From NCBI GenBank assembly GCA_017938765.1, contig JAGBAX010000005.1, positions 1-64,000 of the forward strand: a stretch of 64,000 nt of DNA, given 5' to 3'. Made by a program: the position numbers and the translations under genes. The notes beneath the pieces are model-generated. The model had not been told where the DNA came from, did no database searches, and saw nothing but the letters and a program-made list of their open reading frames with translations. Positions 24,149-38,125 of the stretch are shown here, one piece after another. The first letter of the stretch is position 1. Each line of letters starts with the position of its first letter. The stretch comes from Alistipes sp. Its GTDB lineage: Bacteria > Bacteroidota > Bacteroidia > Bacteroidales > Rikenellaceae.

Positions 24149-24778
24149 CTATTTTTCCTGTAAATCCTTATTAAATGAACGATGAGCCCAGATAATGCAA
24201 CCTACGATAATCAGTGCCATTGGTGGGAAGAGCATAAGACCGCAGTTTGAGTAGAAACCGCCCTCTGCAAGGTACCAGCTCTCTGGAATAATGCGGAAAC
24301 CAAAGAGAGTACCAGAGCCGAGAAGCTCACGGAAGAATGCGATAATCACCAAAATAGATGCATAACCAAGACCATTGCCAATACCGTCAAGGAAAGAGTC
24401 CCAAGGCTTGTTCTGGAGAGCAAATGCCTCAACACGACCCATAACGATACAGTTTGTAATAATCAGACCCACATAGACAGAGAGCTGCTTTGAGACATCA
24501 TAAACAAATGCCTTAAGCACCTGGTCTACAAGGATTACCAACGCTGCGATAACCACAAGCTGAACGATAATTCGGATGCGAGAAGGCACACCGTTACGCA
24601 GCAGGGACATCACAAGGTTAGAGAATGCTGTTACCACCATCACTGACAAGCCCATAACAATTGCAGGCTTGAGCTGTACGGTAACCGCCAAAGCTGAACA
24701 GATTCCCAGAATCTGTACGATGACAGGGTTATTGCCAGAGAGTGGCGCTGTCAAATTTTTCAAACTCTTACTTGCCAT
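24149..24778 (-). CDS. nqrD: Na+-translocating NADH:quinone reductase subunit D
   Basis: The 209-residue membrane protein has [20 protein letters not shown] and [16 protein letters not shown], the two Cys-containing half-helices that match those of NqrE and form the iron centre in the membrane. It is separated from nqrC by 4 nt. Length and motifs are normal for the family. Confidence 0.97.
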
Positions 24779-24782
24779 TGTT

Positions 24783-25508
24783 TTACTCGTTTAAAGTGTT
24801 AGACTCAGCCTCAACCTCTGCAGTCGCAGCAGCGCGAGCAGCATCAAAGTAAGGCTTGTAATAATTGAGGCAGTCAGAAATCATTGCTGAAACACCGTCA
24901 GAGGTCTTTGTACCACCTGTAATGGCGTCAACCTGATGAGGGTTACCCTTCTCTGCACCACCCTTCTTAAGAGTGATACCTACGAGCTGGTCGTTCTCAT
25001 AAACACTCTTGCCAACATACATTGCCTGGTGCTTTGGAGTAGTAATCTCTGCACCAAGACCTGGAGTCTCACCAGAGTGGTCAAGAACGATACCCTTTAC
25101 GGTATTCATATCAGTATCAAGAGCGATATAGCCCCAGATTGGGCCCCAAAGACCTGCGCCATAGAGAGGTGCAACAACGCCTGATGTAGCAACGAAGAGC
25201 GGGAAGCGGTTAGCCGCAAAACTACCCTTAAGGTCGTTAAGAGCTGCGAACACCTCGCTAACATCCTCTGAAACTACTGCGCCAGTCTGATCAAGGATAA
25301 CTGCCTTTGTAATTACGCTATCGTAAGCTACTGTTGCAGGATCCTCGCCCAGTGCCTTTACAATCTGTGTCTTCTTCTCGTTAAGCATATTCTCCTGCTG
25401 GCGTGGTGCAAGACCAAGAGCTGCTACAGCAAGCAGAACGGCAACGATAACTACCATTATTACCGAGTAGATAATAATATAGGTATTACTATTTGTATTT
25501 ACTTTCAT
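24783..25508 (-). CDS. nqrC: Na+-translocating NADH:quinone reductase subunit C
   Basis: The 241-residue protein has an N-terminal membrane helix (residues 8-32) and a periplasmic FMN domain. The covalent FMN site is the Thr in [16 protein letters not shown] (around residue 200). [13 protein letters not shown] and [13 protein letters not shown] are family-typical. The acidic Ala/Glu-rich C-terminal tail extends beyond the core. Confidence 0.96.
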
Positions 25509-25519
25509 AACCCCTCCTC

Positions 25520-26650
25520 CTACTTTACAGATTTAACACGATTTGCACGACGACGAATGTTTGCCTCAACAACAAAGTAGTCTACAAGTGGAGCAAGAGC
25601 ATTCATAAACAGGATTGAGAGCATCATACCCTCCGGATATGCAGGGTTTACCTGACGGATGAGGATTGCAATAGCACCTGTCATGAAACCTACGATGTAC
25701 TTACCAGTAGAGGTCTGTGCAGAGGTTACTGGGTCAGTTGCCATAAAGACAGCACCGAAAGCAAAACCACCTACAATAAGGTGATAGTATGCTGGATAGT
25801 CAAAGCAACCAAGTGCGCTGAACAAGTAAGCTGTAGCAGCACCACCGACAAATACTGAAACCATAGTCTTCCAAGATGCGATACCTGTGAAGAGCAGAAT
25901 GGCAGCACCGATAAGGATTGCAAGTGTTGATGTCTCGCCAAATGAACCTGGGATAAAGCCGAGGAATGCATCAAGTGCGCTCCACTTCATAGAACCAGTA
26001 GTTGCGAGCTGCTCAAGAGCAGTAGCACCAGTTACACCATCAACCTGCGCGCCCATCATTGTCCAGTCAGAGTACCAAACCTTCTCACCTGACATCTGCG
26101 GAGTGTAAGCAAAGAATACGAATGCACGAGCAAGAACTGCAGGGTTGAATACATTCATACCAGTACCACCGAATACCTCCTTACCAAAGATAACTGCAAA
26201 TGCAGTACCTACAGCAACCATCCAAAGTGGGGTGCTTACAGGCATTACAAGTGGAATAAGCAGACCAGAGACAAGGAAACCCTCGTTAATGGCGTGACCA
26301 CGAAGCTGTGCTGCGGTAAACTCAATACCCAAACCAACGATATAAGTTGTAGCAATCATTGGAAGGATACGAACAAGACCATAGAAGAATGCTGTCCAGC
26401 CCTCAAGGCCTACCTGGATACCGGTGTTGTAGCAACCGAAGAGCAGTGCAGGGATAAGAGCAATGACAACCATAATCATAGTACGCTTCATATCGTTACA
26501 GTCACGAACATGCGCACCGTGCTGGGTAGTCTTGTTAGGAACAAAAAGGAAAGTCTCAAATCCATCAAAAGTGGACTCAAGGAAAGCCAACTTACCTCCC
26601 TTGGAGAAAGTAGGCTTGAGTTTATCAACTATTGAACGAAGTGCCTTCAT
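25520..26650 (-). CDS. nqrB: Na+-translocating NADH:quinone reductase subunit B
   Basis: The 376-residue polytopic subunit carries DGVTGATALEQL, whose Thr is the covalent FMN attachment site, and GKEVFGGTGMNVFNPAVLARAF and FMATDPVTSAQT as in NqrB/RnfD. It holds the sodium and quinone-reduction path in the membrane. Its ATG overlaps the nqrA stop codon (TAATG). Confidence 0.97.
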   Translation of the reverse strand: MKALRSIVDKLKPTFSKGGKLAFLESTFDGFETFLFVPNKTTQHGAHVRDCNDMKRTMIMVVIALIPALLFGCYNTGIQVGLEGWTAFFYGLVRILPMIATTYIVGLGIEFTAAQLRGHAINEGFLVSGLLIPLVMPVSTPLWMVAVGTAFAVIFGKEVFGGTGMNVFNPAVLARAFVFFAYTPQMSGEKVWYSDWTMMGAQVDGVTGATALEQLATTGSMKWSALDAFLGFIPGSFGETSTLAILIGAAILLFTGIASWKTMVSVFVGGAATAYLFSALGCFDYPAYYHLIVGGFAFGAVFMATDPVTSAQTSTGKYIVGFMTGAIAILIRQVNPAYPEGMMLSILFMNALAPLVDYFVVEANIRRRANRVKSVK

Positions 26651-27993
26651 TACTCACCCTCCTTAATCATTAAGTTAATACCATTGCGGATAATCTGCTG
26701 CATCTCGGTCTTAGATGGGTCAACGAACTCACACAGAGCGAAGTCCTCCTCAACAACCTCATAGATACCCAGAGCCTCCATCTTATCCAAATCGCCAGCA
26801 AGGATAGCCTTGAGCAGGTGCATTGGATAGATATCCATTGGCAGATACTTCTCATAAAGGCCTGTAACAACGAAAGCACGCTCCTCACCATTAAGATTGG
26901 TATCAAGATTGTACTTACGGTTAGGGAACAACCAAGAGAAGTATGCGCGAGATACTGAGAACTTGCTAAAGCGAGGCATTGCCCAGCCAAGAAGCTCATA
27001 GTCGTCGCCCTCAGGGATAACTGTAATCTGGTTTGCATAGTAGCCCAGATAGCCCTCTGCGCCAACATTGCGACCAGTAAGAACATTACCAGAGATGTAA
27101 CGAACATTTGCACCATCTGCAATCTGACCCTTAAGGATAGAGTCAAGCTTTGCACCTGCAACAACCTTTACATATGCAGGAGCGTTAACCTCTGCACCAG
27201 TAACGGCAATAGTACGGGTCATATCAACCTTACCAGTGAGGAAGAGGCGACCGATGATAGCAACATCGGCGTAACCAACAGTCCAAACCTTCTCACCCTT
27301 GTTAATTGGGTCAATGTGATGAATCTGAACACCTACATTACCTGCTGGGTGCTTGCCCTGGAATGCGTGAAGCTCAACACCTGTGAATGCTGGAGCCTCT
27401 GCCTGAGCATTGTAGCTCAAGTGTACCTTACCAGTAGTAAGGCGAGCCAGAACCTCAAAACCCTTCTGCAGAGCCTGCTTGTCAGCAGCCAGAGTGTAGC
27501 CATAATCTGGAGCAAGTGGAGCAGAATCAAATGCAGAAACAAAAATCGACTTAGGCATATCTGCAGGATTTGCAATAATGCCATACGGACGCTGAACGAG
27601 CAGTGTCCAAAGACCCGACTTAAGCAAAAGTTCAACAATCTGGTCGCGAGTAGCCTTTGCAACATCAAGGGTCTCAAACTCCTCGTATGCGATAGTCTGG
27701 TCAGCAGCAATCTCAACAGCAAGGATACGGCGCTTCTCACCACGAACCACAGCAGCAACAGTACCGCTTACTGGTGAAGTGAAAACAACCGACGCGTTAT
27801 TCTTGTTGAAGAACAACGGTGTACCCGCCTTAACTGCATCGCCAACCTTAACTAGCATCTTAGGAACGATACCCTCAAAGTCCAGCGGCGAAACTGCATA
27901 TGTAGAAGCCAAACCAACAGCGGTTGTCTTCTTCTCAGCAGCACCCTGCAACTTGATATCCAAACCTTTGCACAGCTTAATAGTTTTTGACAT
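26650..27993 (-). CDS. nqrA: Na+-translocating NADH:quinone reductase subunit A
   Basis: The 447-residue first subunit starts MSKTIKLCKGLDIKLQGAAE and includes VKVGDAVKAGTPLFF (biotinyl-like fold), VQIHHIDPINKGEKVWTVGY and MPRFSKFSVSRAYFSWLFPNRKYNLDTN, all characteristic. It is a cytoplasmic peripheral subunit near the quinone site. No exact -7 box precedes it; the closest is TACCTTCG on the minus strand at 28055-28062, a one-base variant. Confidence 0.97.
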   Translation of the reverse strand: MSKTIKLCKGLDIKLQGAAEKKTTAVGLASTYAVSPLDFEGIVPKMLVKVGDAVKAGTPLFFNKNNASVVFTSPVSGTVAAVVRGEKRRILAVEIAADQTIAYEEFETLDVAKATRDQIVELLLKSGLWTLLVQRPYGIIANPADMPKSIFVSAFDSAPLAPDYGYTLAADKQALQKGFEVLARLTTGKVHLSYNAQAEAPAFTGVELHAFQGKHPAGNVGVQIHHIDPINKGEKVWTVGYADVAIIGRLFLTGKVDMTRTIAVTGAEVNAPAYVKVVAGAKLDSILKGQIADGANVRYISGNVLTGRNVGAEGYLGYYANQITVIPEGDDYELLGWAMPRFSKFSVSRAYFSWLFPNRKYNLDTNLNGEERAFVVTGLYEKYLPMDIYPMHLLKAILAGDLDKMEALGIYEVVEEDFALCEFVDPSKTEMQQIIRNGINLMIKEGE

Positions 27994-30377: not shown

Positions 30378-31535
30378 ATGCTGAGCAGACAGGTTGCCGA
30401 CAAGTTGGCAAAGTACGAAACCCCATTCTATCTCTATGACATTGAGTTGCTAAGCCAGACTCTTGAGAGTCTTATGAGCATAGCAAACAAATATAACTAC
30501 AAGATTCACTACGCCATAAAGGCTAACTATGATGCGCGTCTGTTGCAGATTATTCGCAAGTATGGCGTTGGCATTGACTGCGCAAGTGGTAACGAGGTGC
30601 GTTGCGCTATTGAGGCGGGATTTGACCCCAAGACTATTGTCTACGCTGGTGTTGGTAAGCGCGATAAGGAGATTCACTACGCTATTGAGCAGAATATTCT
30701 GGCTATTAACTGTGAGTCTATAGAGGAGATTCATCTTGTAAATGAGCTTGCTGCTGAGGCTGGCAAGGTAGTGAGTATCGCCCTGCGAGTAAACCCCGAT
30801 ATTGACCCAAAGACCAACCACTGCATTGACACTGGTCAGGCAGATAGTAAGTTTGGTATCTCATACGAAGAGATTCTCTCAAGCGTTGATGATATCCGCT
30901 CGCTTAAAAATATTGTCGTTATCGGTATGCACATCCACATCGGCTCGCAGATTCGTGAGCTACATGTCTTTGAGAATATGTGCAACAAGGTCAATGCTAT
31001 TGTAGAGTATCTGACAAAGCTCGGCTTTGAGATTGAGTTTGTAGATGTTGGTGGTGGTCTGGGTATCAACTACGATATGCCAGAGAACGAGCCAATTCCG
31101 AACTTTGCCTCTGTATTTGCCATTATCAAGCAGCACCTAAAGGTTGGCAATCGCGAGGTTCACTTTGAGTTTGGTCGCTCTATCGTTGGTCAGTGTGGAG
31201 AGCTGATTACCAAGGTGTTGTACAATAAGACCACAGCTACTGGTCGTCGTCTTGTGATTGTTGATGGCAGTATGACAGAGCTTATCCGCCCTGCCCTCTA
31301 CGGCTCTTATCACAACATTGAGAATATCACCTCACAGGCAGAGCAGCGACTCAAGTATACCATCGTAGGTACAGCCTGCGAGTCTACAGATGTCTTTGAT
31401 GAGAACGTCTCTCTGCCACTGACAAAGCGTGGTGATTTGCTGACAATAAAGTCTGCTGGCGCATATGGAATGTCAATGGCATCGCAATACAACCAGCACG
31501 ACCTTCCAGCGGCGGTATATAGCGACGAATTGTAG
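30378..31535 (+). CDS. lysA: Diaminopimelate decarboxylase
   Basis: The 385-residue fold-type III PLP enzyme has YDIELL, HYAIKANYDARLL (PLP Lys near residue 49), VDVGGGLGINYD, FEFGRSIVGQCGELITKVLY and GTACESTDVFDENV with the active-site Cys. It makes lysine from meso-diaminopimelate in the cytosol. A strong terminator follows at 31590. Confidence 0.95.
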   Translation: MLSRQVADKLAKYETPFYLYDIELLSQTLESLMSIANKYNYKIHYAIKANYDARLLQIIRKYGVGIDCASGNEVRCAIEAGFDPKTIVYAGVGKRDKEIHYAIEQNILAINCESIEEIHLVNELAAEAGKVVSIALRVNPDIDPKTNHCIDTGQADSKFGISYEEILSSVDDIRSLKNIVVIGMHIHIGSQIRELHVFENMCNKVNAIVEYLTKLGFEIEFVDVGGGLGINYDMPENEPIPNFASVFAIIKQHLKVGNREVHFEFGRSIVGQCGELITKVLYNKTTATGRRLVIVDGSMTELIRPALYGSYHNIENITSQAEQRLKYTIVGTACESTDVFDENVSLPLTKRGDLLTIKSAGAYGMSMASQYNQHDLPAAVYSDEL

Positions 31536-31589
31536 GGATTTCTCCGATTTTGAGGTATTTTTTACCGAATAACATATAAAATCAATATA

Positions 31590-31636
31590 AAAAAACAGAA
31601 TTTCTATACAAAAGTATTGAAATTCTGTTTTTTGTT
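31590..31636 (+). terminator. Intrinsic terminator after lysA
   Basis: A 15-bp stem (31590-31604 with 31619-31633), with further TATAC/GTAT pairing in the loop and A/T-run flanks. Confidence 0.85.
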
Positions 31637-31672
31637 TATACCTTTATGGTGGAATTTAATACATATTAAGAT

Positions 31673-33571
31673 ATGAACAGATTTTTATTATTTACTATCA
31701 TTATTATCTCGCTCTCGGCGTGTACAAAAGAGGTGTATGACATTGATACACCAACAGTGCCGAGCGATAAGATTTTCAACTATAACGAGTCGGCGGCGCT
31801 TGGTCGCCTAATGGTGCGAATGGTAGATACTCAGGGGGATATTGCGGTTGATGGTATCAACCTTGATGTAGAGCCACTATTTCCTAATACAACAGGTAGC
31901 GACAAGCTCAGTCGTTGGATGTTGGTACAATTTAATGAGACTCTTGATCTAAAGAGTGTTGCAGAGAAGATAGCTGCACTTGAGACTGTTGAACGCGTTG
32001 AGTATGACATCAAACTCAAGCTCGTCAAATCAGAGTCGGCTCCAGCCCCGACATCACGCCCTGAGCCCACCCGCTCTCAAAGCATGCCTTTCAATGACCC
32101 TGAGTTGCCTTATCAGTGGCACTACTACAACGATGGCTGGTTAAGCAGTGAGGTAGATGACCCAAACAAGTGTTTGGCTGGTGCTGATATTAACCTCTTT
32201 AATGCTTGGAAATATACTACTGGAGATCGTCGCGTTATTGTAGCGGTAATGGATGACGGTGTTAATGTGAATCACAAAGATCTTAAGGCTAATATCTGGG
32301 TTAATGAGGCAGAGCTGAATGGGCAATTAGGTATAGATGACGATATGAACGGCTATGTTGATGATATTAACGGCTATAACTTTGTGCAAGGTAATGGCAA
32401 AATAACAGCAGGAGATCATGGAACACATATCGCCGGTACCATCTCGGCAGTGAATAACAACAATTACTGTGGTTGCGGCATTGCTGGTGGTACAGGCAAT
32501 GACGACGGTGTACGCATTATGCCAATCCAAATTTCCTCCCCCTCCTCCAACACATACTCATACTATATAGCGCAAGGTTTCGCGTATGCCGCCGACAATG
32601 GCGCGGTGCTTATCTGCAGTTCATGGAGCTATGATGCGGGGGCTTTTGCATTTGATGAACATTTTGAACTGAGTGATTCAGCTATTAAGGATGCTATTGA
32701 CTACTTCCAGACAAAAGCTCGCTTAGATGGCGTTATGGAGGGCGGTGTTGCAATCTTCGCAGCAGGCGATGAAACATATCCCGCAGCCTGTTATCCGGGG
32801 GCTTACCACGAGTATATTAGCGTTACAGCTATGTCACCCGACTTTACTGCAGCACCATACACCAACTATGGTCCAGGATGTAATGTTGTAGCCCCAGGTG
32901 GTGATTATATGTATACTGTTTTCGGCATATCATCAACATCAGCGAATGATAACCGCGACGGCTATGAGTATCAGCATGGTACGGCAATGGCGGCATCTCA
33001 CGTTACGGGCTGTGCTGCTTTGGCTCTCTCGTATGCACTTAAACAGGGCTACACACTGTCGCCCGACTACCTGCGTACACTTATTCAGACCTCGGTACAC
33101 GATATAAATCCTTACCAGACAGGGTCGAGGTGGATTTTTGATTATGATCTTGGAGAATATTATACGATGGAGCTTGATTTGTTTGCAAACAAACTCGGCT
33201 CAGGGTATATTGATGCACACCTGCTACTTATGCAGCTCGACTCAACACCTTGTCTATACTTTAAGAGCGGTGTGGCAGCATTACTATCGCTTGATGAGTA
33301 TTTTGGCAGCGGCTCAAAGTCGCTTACATATCAGGGTTGCGAGGTAACAGACTCTGTACGCAGCGACCTTGGCATTGAGGGTGAGCCTTGCATAGAGGAT
33401 GGCAAGCTATCAATTAAGTGCAACAAGCCAGGCTTAGGACGAATCAAGGTTAGCGCCATTATTGGAGGCAACGAGGTTGGCGGTGGCGACAAAATGGGCG
33501 GCATGGTCGTAGAGCGAGAGTTTGAGTTAGTAGTTCGCGGTTCGGTAGCAAGTAACGGCGGCTGGTTATAA
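31673..33571 (+). CDS. Subtilase-fold (S8) lipoprotein with catalytic Ser replaced by Ala
   Basis: The 632-residue protein has a lipoprotein signal ending at Cys17 (SLSAC), a prodomain-like N-terminal region (about 40-125) and an S8 domain from about 150 to 480. Asp194 (VAVMDDGV) and His249 (GDHGTHIAGT) match the catalytic Asp and His. The nucleophile motif, normally GTSMAxP, reads GTAMAASH with Ala438 at the Ser position, and the oxyanion Asn (AAGN) is Asp366 (FAAGDET). A C-terminal domain of about 150 residues follows. By these changes the protein should be proteolytically inactive or severely impaired. It is probably exposed on the outer membrane. The next genes encode a 45-residue peptide and a fimbrillin-like lipoprotein. 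Confidence 0.85.
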   Translation: MNRFLLFTIIIISLSACTKEVYDIDTPTVPSDKIFNYNESAALGRLMVRMVDTQGDIAVDGINLDVEPLFPNTTGSDKLSRWMLVQFNETLDLKSVAEKIAALETVERVEYDIKLKLVKSESAPAPTSRPEPTRSQSMPFNDPELPYQWHYYNDGWLSSEVDDPNKCLAGADINLFNAWKYTTGDRRVIVAVMDDGVNVNHKDLKANIWVNEAELNGQLGIDDDMNGYVDDINGYNFVQGNGKITAGDHGTHIAGTISAVNNNNYCGCGIAGGTGNDDGVRIMPIQISSPSSNTYSYYIAQGFAYAADNGAVLICSSWSYDAGAFAFDEHFELSDSAIKDAIDYFQTKARLDGVMEGGVAIFAAGDETYPAACYPGAYHEYISVTAMSPDFTAAPYTNYGPGCNVVAPGGDYMYTVFGISSTSANDNRDGYEYQHGTAMAASHVTGCAALALSYALKQGYTLSPDYLRTLIQTSVHDINPYQTGSRWIFDYDLGEYYTMELDLFANKLGSGYIDAHLLLMQLDSTPCLYFKSGVAALLSLDEYFGSGSKSLTYQGCEVTDSVRSDLGIEGEPCIEDGKLSIKCNKPGLGRIKVSAIIGGNEVGGGDKMGGMVVEREFELVVRGSVASNGGWL

Positions 33572-33592
33572 TCATATTAAAACAGATAAACA

Positions 33593-33730
33593 ATGAAACA
33601 GAGATTATACATAGAGCCTTCAATAGAGATAATCTATATGGCAGCAGAGAGAGGTTTTTTGGTCTCATCAGATCAAGATTGGGGACTTCCAGGCAAGAAT
33701 CCAACAACGAATGATTATGGGGATTTTTAA
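33593..33730 (+). CDS. 45-residue peptide of surface-locus type
   Basis: A complete ATG-TAA frame of 45 codons fills the gap between the subtilase-like and fimbrillin-like genes, 21 nt after one stop and 15 nt before the next start. It begins MKQRLYIEPSIEIIYMAAER, continues GFLVSS and ends in an Asp/Gly/Asn-rich tail (NDYGDF). Short proteins with a basic start, a YxxP..E.. core and a G..xSS turn are, from memory, often found beside fimbrillin or lipocalin-like genes in Bacteroidales. No signal peptide is obvious. Function is unknown. Confidence 0.6.
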   Translation: MKQRLYIEPSIEIIYMAAERGFLVSSDQDWGLPGKNPTTNDYGDF

Positions 33731-33745
33731 TTAGGCATAAAGATT

Positions 33746-34984
33746 ATGAAGAAGATACTTTATATCGTTCTATTTGCAGCTCTTGCTTTGCAGGGCTGTA
33801 ACACAGAGAGTGTTGATAGCATGTCAAAGCTCACAAAGAGTACCATCAGAATTGTTACCGAGATTGGCGATACGCGCACCTATATAACAGACGACAACAA
33901 GATTCATTGGGCTGAGAGTGGCGAACAACTCAATATTATATACTACTCTGACAACAACTCTTCGGAGCTTAGTCAAACACCTACGCATGCAGACTATACA
34001 ATAGAGAGTGATGGTCGCATTATATTCTCTGCGGATATTATGACTGTTGAGGGTGTTGCAAGCCATACTCTCGGCGCCTTCTACCCCTACCAGCACGTTG
34101 CTCAGAGTTCAAGCGTGGTGCTGACCATTCCACAAGCACAAAGTCCTACAGCAGAGAGCTACGACCCAACGAGTGACATTCTTGTATCCAGAGAGCCTAT
34201 AGTAATTGAGGGGGATGTTGAGGGTATAAAGGTTAGCCTTTCGCGTATGGTTGCCTTTGCCAAGATGACCCTTAAGGGCATTGGCGCAGGCGAGATTATT
34301 GAGAAGGTAATCTTCTCATCATCAGCAAAACCTGCTGGTAGTGTAGAGTTTAAGGTACACGAGGCGGCAACAGTAGAGAACGCTGTGTGGTATAATGAGT
34401 ATGAGGATATAGAAATTACACGCGAAAATTGGGTAGCAACAGGCGAAGATGTGGTATGGATGACCACCGTACCTACAAACCTTAGCGGCACAGACTTTAC
34501 CGTAACCGTAGTTACAGATAAACACTCCTACACAAAGAGCGTAGATTTGACCAGCCGAACTCTTGATTTTAAGCGTGGAGATATTGCAACCTTCAGAGTT
34601 ACTCTTGAGCCTACCTTAGACCTCTCAGGTAGCTGGAAGCTAACCGAGTGGCGTGGTGTTAAGCCTTCATTTGAGGTCTACATGCAGATTGACCAGAATA
34701 ATAACGTCACTATGTGGCAGCGCATCACCAGCCGCGAGTGGGAGCGTTATCAGAGTGAGGCGACCATAGAGAGCGGTGTAATCTCAGGCATCTATAGCGA
34801 CGGCGTTGAGTGGCGAGCGTCGTATAACGTAACGATAGATGGCGACTCTATGACATGGACAGATACTACAGATGCCACAGACATTTCGGTGTATAGTCGC
34901 GTAGAGCTTCCTGAGGAGCTGCCTCAGAGTTCACCTACAACACAAACATCAGCTACGCGTGCCGTATCAGAGCGTTTCCTATAA
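33746..34984 (+). CDS. Fimbrillin-like lipoprotein with C-terminal lipocalin-like domain
   Basis: The 412-residue protein has a lipoprotein signal ending at Cys18 (LQGC). The next part (RTYITDDNKIHWAESGEQLNI, about 48-68) is the W-x-x-G-E-Q/D pattern of fimbrillin-type (Mfa/FimA-like) beta domains. Around residues 290-385 a segment starting LSGSWKLTEW resembles lipocalin-like domains that begin with a GxW motif. It is probably a surface or periplasm-facing outer-membrane lipoprotein. It lies 15 nt after the 45-residue peptide and ends before a bidirectional terminator. Confidence 0.65.
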   Translation: MKKILYIVLFAALALQGCNTESVDSMSKLTKSTIRIVTEIGDTRTYITDDNKIHWAESGEQLNIIYYSDNNSSELSQTPTHADYTIESDGRIIFSADIMTVEGVASHTLGAFYPYQHVAQSSSVVLTIPQAQSPTAESYDPTSDILVSREPIVIEGDVEGIKVSLSRMVAFAKMTLKGIGAGEIIEKVIFSSSAKPAGSVEFKVHEAATVENAVWYNEYEDIEITRENWVATGEDVVWMTTVPTNLSGTDFTVTVVTDKHSYTKSVDLTSRTLDFKRGDIATFRVTLEPTLDLSGSWKLTEWRGVKPSFEVYMQIDQNNNVTMWQRITSREWERYQSEATIESGVISGIYSDGVEWRASYNVTIDGDSMTWTDTTDATDISVYSRVELPEELPQSSPTTQTSATRAVSERFL

Positions 34985-35000
34985 CCTAAATAGGATAATA

Positions 35001-35045
35001 AAAAGTATGGGATGGCTATCTTTCAAATAGTCATCCCATATTTTG
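35001..35045. terminator. Bidirectional terminator between convergent genes
   Basis: A 14-bp stem (35006-35019 with 35027-35040, one G-T wobble), with an A-run before and T-run after. It serves the surface locus and the leftward mutS2-murF/alr-methyltransferase unit. Confidence 0.85.
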
Positions 35046-35059
35046 TTTACAGATAGGCT

Positions 35060-35770
35060 TTAGCCGATAATAAAAATCGTAGGGCGCTTTTGTATATCTG
35101 GCATTGTACTTTTGCACCACTGAGCGACGGTTTGAGTGCGGATATACTCGCTCTTGGAGGTAATATCGCAAGCGACACAGAGTCGGGTATCAGGGTTTAG
35201 GCTCTTGAGCATCTGCTCAAGTAGTTTAACATTGCGATAAGGCGCCTCAATAAATAGTTGCGACTGATGTTCTGTTCGGGCACGAGACTCAAGGCGTTTG
35301 ATTGTCTTACTACGCTCTGGCTCTTTAATTGGCAGGTATCCATTAAAGGCAAACGATTGACCGCTCAGTCCCGATGCCATAACGGCCATAAGTATTGACG
35401 AAGGGCCTACAAGTGGAACAACGCGGATATTATGCTTATGGCACAGCTCAACAACAGCCTGTCCAGGGTCGGCCACTGCAGGTACACCAGCCTCGGAGAT
35501 AACGCCCGCACTACGACCTGCCTTGAGTGGCTCTATCATTCGGGCAATCTCTGTTGGGGAGGTTGTATGCTCGTTAAGCTCGACAAAAGTAGCCTCGTCA
35601 ATAGCCTTTGCATAGCCACTCTTTGACAGAAAGCGACGCGCCGAGCGGGTATTCTCCACTATAAAGTAGTCCAGGCTATCAATTATTGCTTGGTTTGCTG
35701 CAGGGGTAACATCCGCGACTGCCGTATCGTCTGATATTGGGCAAGGAATAAGATATAGTGTCGCACTCAT
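35060..35770 (-). CDS. RsmI-like tetrapyrrole-methylase-fold SAM methyltransferase
   Basis: The 236-residue protein has LYLIPCPISDD at the start, ENTRSARRFL, GVISEAGVPAVADPG, VVPLVGPSSILMA and FIEAPYRNVKLLEQML, all typical of the RsmI family that 2'-O-methylates C1402 of 16S rRNA. The N-terminus differs from standard RsmI (LYLVATPIGN), which fits a second Bacteroidota subgroup whose target is less certain. It follows murF-alr by 3 nt. Confidence 0.82.
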   Translation of the reverse strand: MSATLYLIPCPISDDTAVADVTPAANQAIIDSLDYFIVENTRSARRFLSKSGYAKAIDEATFVELNEHTTSPTEIARMIEPLKAGRSAGVISEAGVPAVADPGQAVVELCHKHNIRVVPLVGPSSILMAVMASGLSGQSFAFNGYLPIKEPERSKTIKRLESRARTEHQSQLFIEAPYRNVKLLEQMLKSLNPDTRLCVACDITSKSEYIRTQTVAQWCKSTMPDIQKRPTIFIIG

Positions 35771-35773
35771 AGG

Positions 35774-38125
35774 TTACTCGTATATATAAATTCGTTTAAC
35801 ACGCTTAGATACAGAGGTTAAAATCTCATATGGGATAGTATCAAGAACCGCAGCCATATCCTCCGCACTATTTCCACTATGGGCCGAGAAGATAGTAACA
35901 CTATCGCCCTCCTTGACATCTGGGATATCTGTAACATCAATCATACAGCTATCCATACAGATTCTACCCACTGTAGGTGCGCTCTGTCCACCAACAATCA
36001 TACTCCAGCGGCCACAACCCAAGTGTCTATCAAGGCCATCAGCATAACCGACTGGGATAGTAGCTATACATCTCTGACGCTCAAGCACACCTGCCCTACC
36101 GTAGCCAACAGTCTGTCCAGCCTCAACAGTTCGCACTTGCACAATACGTGTGCGCAGTGTAGAGGCAGGCTCCAGTGACTCATTATGCTCATATCCATAG
36201 CCATACATTCCCAGACCCAAGCGGCACATATCAAAGTGTGCCTCCGGAAAACGAACAATAGCTGCCGAGGCTGCCGCATGGCGAAGCACAGGGTAGCCGA
36301 CATGGTCTGCTATACGGCGACTCAATCTATCATAAAGCGCAATTTGACCCCTTGTAAACTCATCCTGCGAAGGGTCATCTGCCACACATAGATGGGTAAA
36401 TATAGATGCCACTCGGAGCGTAGAGCTGTAGCGGTCAAGTCGCTCAAGAAGTGCCTCAATATCCGCCTCACAAAAGCCCAGACGGTGCATCCCCGTATCC
36501 AACTTAATATGAACTGGATAGCCCTGCTCTGCGCGAGCAGCAAAGGCAAAGGCATCTAACGACCGAAGTGAGTAAATCTCTGGCTCAAGGTGCGAGGCTA
36601 CCATAGTATCAAAGCTATTGTCGTCGGCATTAAGCACCACAATAGGGGCTGTAATACCACCAGCGCGAAGCTCCGCTCCCTCATCGGCAAAGGCTACGGC
36701 AAGGTAACTAACACCCTGCTTTACAAGCATCTGCGCCACCTCTGTATCTCCCGCACCATAACTTGAAGCCTTAACCATTGCCACGAGTTTTGTCGTAGGC
36801 GACATCTTTGAGCGGAAGTAGTTGATATTACGCTCTACAGCCCTTAGATTGACCTCCAAAACGGTTGTATGGCTCTGCAACTCAAAGGCATGCGAGATGC
36901 GCTCTGTGCGCGAGAGTCTATTTCCCTTGATAAGCACAGCCGAGGAGGCTATATCTACATTGTCAATATCTGCCAGCAACTCCTCTGTACTGCCATAAAA
37001 TCGTGTAGGAACACTAAACACCGAAGCGTAGGTAGAAATCTTCTCCCCCACACCCACAAAAAGTTCTACACCACTCTTGTCAATCTTCTGCGCCACAAGT
37101 TCATAGAGTTCCGCCTCACTCATCTCACTCTGCAAAATATCAGAGAGGATAACCACCTTACGGCGTGACTGGGCAACAGAGTTAAGGTAGTCAAGGGCGA
37201 TTGTAAGCGAGTCTATATCACAGCTATAACTATCATCAACAATCACAGCATCCCTAACACCCTGCTTAACCTCAAGGCGCATAGCAAGTGGTTGGAGTTG
37301 TGAGAAATCGGGCGCATCAAAGCCAAAGGTGCGACAAAATGCCGAGACTATGCGCGCATTACCAGACCAAATACCATCTGGCAGATTTCCTACGTTTTCC
37401 ATTGCGCAATCAATCAATTCACAGCCGAAGTATTTATCCTCTATAGCTGCTGCAAGCTGCTTATATTCAGAGTTATAGATAATTCTCTTGGCAGACTTAG
37501 CGAGGTAAATCTTCTCGTTAATTTTCTGCTCTAAACTACAGAAATTAGACTGGTGAGCATCGCCAATATTGGTAAAAATTACCGTCTGTGGTGCAATCAT
37601 CTGCTCAAGGCCTGCCATCTCCCCAACCTGCGATATTCCCGCCTCAATAAGTGCTATCTGCGCATCATCTGGCATCATCAGCAGTGACAGTGCCACACCA
37701 AGCTGCGAGTTATAGCTGCGTGGCGAGCGGTATAACCTCACACTTTGACCCACGCTCTGGGCAATCCACTCCTTGACCGTAGTCTTACCATTTGAGCCAG
37801 CGATAGCCACTACATGACCGTCAAAGTGCTGACGGCGGAAAGCAGCAAGCTGTTGTAGTGCCTTTAGGGCGTTATCAACAACCACAGCACCACAACCATC
37901 TGGTAGCTCAACCTCCCTCTCAACGATATATGCAGAAACTCCACGCTCAACCATATCGCCAACAAACATATGCGCATCATGATTAACACCGCGCATAGCT
38001 ACAAACAGAGCATTGCCTGCGGGCAGTGTGCTGCGACTATCTGTAACAAAGGAGTCTACAGAACTATCTGCTCCATAGAGCTTTCCAGAACATATCTGGG
38101 CTATCTGTGAGAGTGTAAACTGCAT
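35774..38125 (-). CDS. Bifunctional MurF-alanine racemase
   Basis: This 783-residue fusion has an N-terminal Mur ligase (residues 1-410; ATP loop AGSNGKTTVKEW around 112, Mur central and C-terminal domains) and a C-terminal alanine racemase (about 420-783; PLP Lys in MVKASSYGAGDTEVA, KLDTGMHRLGF, and GRICMDSCMIDVTD). It supplies D-Ala and adds D-Ala-D-Ala to the UDP-MurNAc tripeptide. The fusion is known in Bacteroidota. It lies 5 nt after mutS2. Confidence 0.95.
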   Translation of the reverse strand: MQFTLSQIAQICSGKLYGADSSVDSFVTDSRSTLPAGNALFVAMRGVNHDAHMFVGDMVERGVSAYIVEREVELPDGCGAVVVDNALKALQQLAAFRRQHFDGHVVAIAGSNGKTTVKEWIAQSVGQSVRLYRSPRSYNSQLGVALSLLMMPDDAQIALIEAGISQVGEMAGLEQMIAPQTVIFTNIGDAHQSNFCSLEQKINEKIYLAKSAKRIIYNSEYKQLAAAIEDKYFGCELIDCAMENVGNLPDGIWSGNARIVSAFCRTFGFDAPDFSQLQPLAMRLEVKQGVRDAVIVDDSYSCDIDSLTIALDYLNSVAQSRRKVVILSDILQSEMSEAELYELVAQKIDKSGVELFVGVGEKISTYASVFSVPTRFYGSTEELLADIDNVDIASSAVLIKGNRLSRTERISHAFELQSHTTVLEVNLRAVERNINYFRSKMSPTTKLVAMVKASSYGAGDTEVAQMLVKQGVSYLAVAFADEGAELRAGGITAPIVVLNADDNSFDTMVASHLEPEIYSLRSLDAFAFAARAEQGYPVHIKLDTGMHRLGFCEADIEALLERLDRYSSTLRVASIFTHLCVADDPSQDEFTRGQIALYDRLSRRIADHVGYPVLRHAAASAAIVRFPEAHFDMCRLGLGMYGYGYEHNESLEPASTLRTRIVQVRTVEAGQTVGYGRAGVLERQRCIATIPVGYADGLDRHLGCGRWSMIVGGQSAPTVGRICMDSCMIDVTDIPDVKEGDSVTIFSAHSGNSAEDMAAVLDTIPYEILTSVSKRVKRIYIYE

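Follow-up and report, generated by a model that had tools for sequence, protein, structure and literature searches.

The S8-family lipoprotein encoded at 31673-33571 of the window (the whole stretch of 64,000 nucleotides of Alistipes sp. DNA that was analysed) has lost both the nucleophile Ser and the oxyanion-hole Asn, within an open reading frame that is under real purifying selection, though weaker than in its active relatives. With a probability of roughly one half (about 0.52), it is a young, unprocessed and still-constrained pseudoprotease that would act by binding from the membrane, after the loss of its nucleophile, its oxyanion Asn, part of its cleft and its partner gene. Such a protein would be ordinary in kind: a lineage-specific pseudoprotease of a known fold family, and probably a young one.

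Architecture of the S8 lipoprotein

The gene and the parts of its product that are referred to below are the following.

31673..33571, + strand: S8-family lipoprotein gene with lost catalytic residues (pseudoprotease), 632 aa; from the ORF, the Pfam matches PF00082 and PF16361, and residues read by alignment
31721..31723, + strand: Cys17, predicted lipid-attachment cysteine in the lipobox LSAC; from sequence and conservation
31907..32137, + strand: prodomain-type N-terminal region, Peptidase_S8_N, residues 79-155; Pfam match
32228..33097, + strand: subtilase domain, residues 186-475; Pfam match
32252..32254, + strand: Asp194, catalytic Asp retained; by alignment, motif AVMDDGV
32417..32419, + strand: His249, catalytic His retained; by alignment, motif AGDHGTHI
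32768..32770, + strand: Asp366 at the oxyanion-hole Asn position; by alignment, motif FAAGDETY
32984..32986, + strand: Ala438 at the nucleophile Ser position; by alignment, motif HGTAMAASH
33128..33568, + strand: C-terminal region (residues 486-632) with a terminal GWL; from its conservation relative to the catalytic domain

The frame opens with ATG and is intact, without stops. Membership of the subtilase family follows from homology, as the Pfam profile Peptidase_S8 (PF00082) matches with 133.1 bits (cut-off 21.8), its best stretch covering residues 186-475. Peptidase_S8_N (PF16361) matches residues 79-155 with 60.1 bits (cut-off 30.5), and NCBIfam profiles gave only matches below the cut-off. 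The N-terminus, MNRFLLFTIIIISLSAC, was read by eye as a signal peptide with a lipobox cysteine, from which lipidation is predicted; the Cys17 column is invariant across the 37 active homologues compared. The preliminary description of this DNA, which spoke of a lipid-anchored protein with a normal signal peptide and an otherwise intact frame, agrees with these features. The Peptidase_S8_N region sits after the lipid anchor and before the catalytic domain, and would correspond to a prodomain of the cleaved type. At the other end of the protein, the last three residues read GWL in 93, GWM in 4, AWL in 3 and GWF in 1 of 101 distinct aligned S8 proteins, and so form a conserved signature.

The altered active site

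Of the residues expected in an active S8 peptidase, the catalytic Asp and His are present in normal motifs, and the GTS Ser and the oxyanion Asn are absent. When aligned to solved subtilases, GTAMA falls opposite GTSMA (3vv3, 3lpd) and AAGDE opposite AAGNE (3lpd). The alignment of homologues agrees, and all four residues are thus as they had been called from the sequence at the outset. The preliminary description had also proposed to look for another Ser at the nucleophile position. None occurs at that column of the alignment; a Ser that is new in the dead form, Ser442, lies four residues further on, at a position where all 37 active homologues have Pro.

Altogether, the window protein and its sister copy (the dead pair, see below) alter 7 of the 119 columns that are invariant across 37 of the 40 active homologues, L061, L062 and L077 having been omitted as N-terminally short. 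The changes are V253I, N315C, N316S, N366D, S438A and P442S, with D308N in the sister alone. Residues 315-317 presumably form part of the substrate strand, whose end is close to Ser125 in subtilisin numbering, while we take 253 to lie beside the catalytic His and 442 to follow the nucleophile. For comparison, 11 invariant sites are lost in the distant active homologue L016_1348 and 4 in L015. Seven lost sites are therefore not exceptional as a number; it is their location in the active site that counts.

Could the window enzyme still be active by an altered chemistry, for instance with another residue as nucleophile? Asp194 and His249 are retained and Ser442 is close by in the chain, yet in the subtilisin structure this Ser would sit about one helical turn away. 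As the nucleophile and oxyanion positions have both changed, together with the substrate strand and Pro442, such an activity is very improbable.

Distribution of the loss among homologues

Homologues were collected by a scan of named genomes (31 loci) and by a search of 180 genomes of the genus, 43 of which gave a match at E<=1e-150. The catalytic residues were read in 42 orthologous ORFs, in 60 further ORFs of the genus (a selection from the matches listed) and in the two S8 paralogues of the window's own genome, L002 and L003. A first count of 104 contained one duplicate (L108 = L016_1348), leaving 103 distinct homologues; 18 distant loci (L017-L034), several of which could not be reliably aligned at the Asn, are outside this count.

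The full set Asp/His/Asn/Ser is found in 101 of the 103 and Asp/His/Asp/Ala in 2, namely the window protein and its counterpart in genome G098. This sister copy (G098/SIG178) is 96% identical to the window protein and carries both substitutions. A further locus, L004 (SUZO01000017.1, MAG SIG178), coincides letter for letter with a section of the G098 contig, so that the two represent one genome. The loss of the catalytic residues is lineage-specific and confined to two genomes among those examined.

The preliminary description had warned that orthologues might expose the substitutions as a sequencing error or as a recent mutation. A lineage-specific mutation is indeed what is found. A sequencing error was rejected as the cause of Ala438 and Asp366, since both recur in the second genome. 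An anciently conserved pseudoprotease subfamily was rejected as well, because 101 of the 103 homologues keep the full set. The term pseudoprotease thus stands in the sense that the Ser and the oxyanion Asn are gone from a frame that is still constrained, and not in the sense of an established family.

L002 and L003 have full catalytic sets and are 40-44% identical to the window protein. Elsewhere in the genus, S8 lipoprotein genes also occur as tandem or near-tandem pairs (G050:C32, G091:C1, G080:C24, G004:C5). Their products are 47-60% identical to the window copy and show the full catalytic set in those residues that were read.

The neighboring genes and the missing partner

Three prime of the S8 gene, two further features are of importance.

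33593..33730, + strand: 45-aa ORF with counterparts in the sister genome (96% identity) and in L008 (58% identity), the latter located after the partner gene
33746..34984, + strand: 412-aa lipoprotein with a fimbrillin-like N-terminal and a lipocalin-like C-terminal part, both named after matches of homologues

In the active orthologues, a lipoprotein gene starts 12-110 nt after the protease gene in 36 of the 38 assessable loci (40 active loci in total; L057 and L078 could not be assessed, and L058 and L060 are without such a gene). The encoded partner is typically 470-515 aa long, with three shorter forms of 250-357 aa, and a simple lipocalin-type motif is present in 28 of the 36. With a partner query, tblastn found the gene in all 13 active loci tested. 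At both dead loci it is absent, and in the window genome and G098, which are 87% and 89% complete, the query matches nothing but other lipoproteins, at their lipocalin-like ends. The gene order in L008 is S8, partner, 45-aa ORF and fimbrillin/lipocalin lipoprotein; in the window and in the sister it is S8, 45-aa ORF and fimbrillin/lipocalin lipoprotein. The 45-aa ORF gave no match in Pfam and NCBIfam searches and, from its conservation, is probably a real small gene.

The labels "lipocalin" and "fimbrillin" are based on some homologues only. In an alignment of 16 sequences, Mfa_like_1 matches 1 (E 1e-8) and Lipocalin_4 matches 6 (best E 5e-4); the 412-aa window lipoprotein itself has no Pfam match, and no Lipocalin profile of Pfam matches the complete partner proteins from L012 and L008. 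RFL forms the C-terminus of many lipocalin-ended lipoproteins. The neighbor that had been described as fimbrillin-like deserves that name for its N-terminus, but it is a two-part protein with a lipocalin-like C-terminus, and the gene that usually follows the protease is missing.

The paralogues bear on another explanation, in which the dead protein would be a decoy or moderator. By occupying the substrates or the partner lipoproteins of active S8 paralogues, either the two in its own genome or those of neighbors, it would limit their proteolysis. Both paralogues with full catalytic sets are accompanied by a small lipoprotein gene, directly downstream in L002 (Lipocalin_4, 22.8 bits, cut-off 22.4) and, at similar size and without a Lipocalin_4 match, one gene further on in L003. 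A protein whose fold region overall and C-terminal region are kept while its active site is lost would suit such a role. The low identity of the paralogues to the window protein speaks against it, however, and the changed substrate strand (N315C, N316S) is contrary to the same cleft specificity. This explanation is improbable.

Origin of the cassette

In a protein tree of 42 sequences, the dead pair is nested within the active orthologues on a long stem (0.36). It groups with L006 at 97% ultrafast bootstrap, and with L005 added at 93%; a tree of 16 sequences gives the same groupings with supports of 86 and 80. All of these supports are from unrooted trees. Most active relatives (L005, L007-L016) come, by their record titles, from samples of the ruminant hindgut; for L004 and L006 the titles are silent on the host.

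The MutS2 of the window genome tells of a different affinity. It is 75-95% identical to that of ten genomes (G028, G036, G003, G175, G125, G129, G006, G122, G063 and G029) and just 59-61% identical to that of carriers of the active orthologues such as G126, G072, G039, G136 and G043, to whose S8 proteins the window protein is 63-70% identical. None of the ten MutS2-close relatives, several of which are incomplete genomes, is among the 43 with a strong S8 match. The space that separates the decarboxylase gene from rsmI measures 90 nt in G129 and 388 nt in G003, while in G028 and G122 it holds another lipoprotein gene of little over 310 aa, which in G028 matches DUF6562. Since the dead copies lie among active orthologues but their host genomes belong to another clade, the S8 cassette was probably acquired horizontally, together with the downstream lipoprotein, between the decarboxylase gene and rsmI; this is the simplest reading. 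The interval between 31535 and 35060, which holds the S8 cassette in the window and in G098, is variable across genomes and looks like an insertion hotspot.

A second transfer appears to have followed, as indicated by a tract of high identity between the window and the sister.

31501..36000, no strand: approximate high-identity tract, window versus sister, 0.91-0.99 per 250 nt, boundaries not sharp

Among the 24 genes compared between the two genomes, the S8 gene has the smallest dS (0.054), followed by the next gene (0.089); the value is 0.21 in rsmI and 0.50, 0.66, 0.68 and 0.70 in nearby genes on either side. From these values, the tract probably passed between the two dead copies at a later time, through recombination between two species of the genus. 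The genes at 24152-27993, which read as an Rnf/Nqr-type cluster, also have a low dS against the sister (0.10-0.34), reflecting codon bias or another exchange; this low upstream dS and the lack of sharp tract edges count against the proposed exchange. Presence in two species was rejected as proof of long retention because the recombination tract is probably shared. The ORF at 35774-38125 encodes a 783-aa protein that reads as a Mur ligase/alanine racemase fusion, a kind which we take to be common in Bacteroidota.

Selection after the loss

Selection was estimated by a codon model on 16 of the 42 orthologues (both dead copies and 14 active ones, 622 codons). The tips of the dead pair have an omega of 0.40 against a background of 0.15, i.e. 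2.7 times as high; omega over short timescales tends to be inflated. The tips differ both from omega=1 (2dlnL 9.4, p 0.002) and from the background omega (2dlnL 11.4, p 0.0007). As both tips postdate the shared substitutions, the constraint that is measured is post-loss. On the stem to the dead pair, which is saturated, omega does not differ from the background (0.13 versus 0.15, 2dlnL 0.9). For the amount of synonymous change seen, neutrality would predict about 69 nonsynonymous changes and about 3.7 stops, and 32 and 0 were observed (p 0.026 for the absence of stops). For the adjacent lipoprotein omega is 0.16 by counting, the contrast with the S8 gene being borderline (p 0.056). Purifying selection on the dead copies is present, yet weaker than in the active relatives. 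The two marks of a pseudoprotease, lost residues and a frame under purifying selection, are hence both found, the latter relaxed relative to the background.

The changes are distributed unevenly over the protein. Among sites that are constant in eight close active relatives, the dead pair differs at 38 of 233 within the catalytic domain and at 4 of 86 within the C-terminal region (p 0.005). A significant excess in the catalytic domain is seen in none of the five lineages used for comparison: the counts are 38/233 and 19/86 for L009/L011/L014 (p 0.25), 34/233 and 6/86 for L044 (p 0.086, leaning the same way as the dead pair) and 17/233 and 13/86 for L045 (p 0.05, in the opposite direction), while L067 gives p 1.0 and L006 p 0.19, the latter again in the opposite direction. 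The ratio of catalytic to C-terminal dN is 0.83-1.02 when the window is compared with five active relatives; three pairs of active proteins give 0.37, 0.50 and 0.60.

The serious rival of the main reading is early decay, in which catalysis is gone, the cell could do without the protein and the frame has stayed open merely through short time or through hitchhiking with the selected neighboring lipoprotein. Only two genomes, both incomplete, carry the dead form, and their copies probably do not represent two long independent retentions owing to the shared tract, in whose exchange the lipoprotein gene was probably included. The raised omega at the tips along with the unchanged stem fits a late loss, and the otherwise invariant Asp308 is lost in the sister alone. 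Against decay, branches that postdate the shared losses over their entire length have an omega significantly below 1, the expected stops are missing, the C-terminal region is better kept than the catalytic domain, and the start, the lipobox and the C-terminal GWL are all intact. On this evidence, early decay is less likely than the main reading, although the raised omega fits it as well. The stem without relaxation and a low dS that is not unique to the cassette make the main reading, and likewise the far-reaching scenario described below, slightly less likely and decay slightly more so. The original verdict of "maintained and not decaying" is accordingly borne out in part: constraint is visible in the omega below 1 and in the lack of stops, but it is weaker than in the active proteins, and early decay keeps an appreciable probability.

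Proposed mode of action

In the main reading of a tethered binding pseudoprotease, the position of the anchor is decisive. In an active member, the anchor Cys17 precedes the prodomain, and maturation should therefore free the catalytic part from the anchored part. Without the Ser and the oxyanion Asn, the window protein would be unable to cleave its own prodomain. The prodomain, the subtilase domain and the C-terminal region would remain one chain, tethered via Cys17. The uncleaved prodomain would stay in or over the cleft, and such occupancy would favor binding by other surfaces over an open cleft that takes up peptides. Binding would then take place chiefly via the C-terminal region, which is the better kept and the best candidate, and via the body. 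The binding partner would probably be the fimbrillin/lipocalin lipoprotein of the same cluster, and the protein may serve as a receptor or scaffold, or more specifically as a cell-envelope scaffold or decoy.

A more far-reaching scenario is tentative and rather doubtful. Within one recent lineage, a self-releasing anchored zymogen may have turned into a permanent tethered binder: the loss of the nucleophile would block prodomain cleavage, the lipocalin-ended partner would become superfluous and be deleted, and the dead cassette would spread between species by recombination. If true, this would be a natural before-and-after pair for the birth of a pseudoprotease. Pseudoproteases are usually met long after the event, when the ancestral function and the partners have become obscure. 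Here, the active orthologues (68-70% identical), the missing partner and the two dead copies together make it possible to test in which order the events took place and which function was retained. The analysis also reveals a recurring unit of a gut genus, i.e. an S8 lipoprotein with a downstream lipocalin-ended lipoprotein. Within the collection searched, and judged by titles and the beginnings of abstracts, literature searches brought up no paper on this unit or on this protein family.

Comparison with known systems

The closest counterparts are the active S8 lipoproteins of Rikenellaceae/Alistipes (L006, L005, L008, L012), orthologues that are about 68-69% identical over the full length. Like these, the window copy has a lipobox, a prodomain region, a subtilase domain and a C-terminal region with the GWL end. 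Unlike the window copy, they keep the Asp/His/Asn/Ser set and the following lipocalin-ended lipoprotein.

PCSK9 is a eukaryotic protein with the S8 fold whose biological role is binding and whose prodomain remains attached. It retains the triad and performs a single auto-processing. It thus resembles the role proposed for the window protein as an S8-fold binder with an attached prodomain, but differs in keeping its triad and in processing itself once.

The Csp proteins of Clostridioides difficile are described in PMC6636752. There, CspC has an uncleaved prodomain and a role in germinant sensing, with Gly485 and Thr170 replacing the Ser and His, and CspC and CspA are soluble spore proteins with a jelly-roll insertion (PMC6636752). 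They share with the window protein the S8 fold and the loss of catalytic residues, and CspC is the precedent of an S8 pseudoprotease whose prodomain stays uncleaved. In contrast to the window lipoprotein, both are soluble, carry the jelly-roll insertion and, by the same account, have lost different residues.
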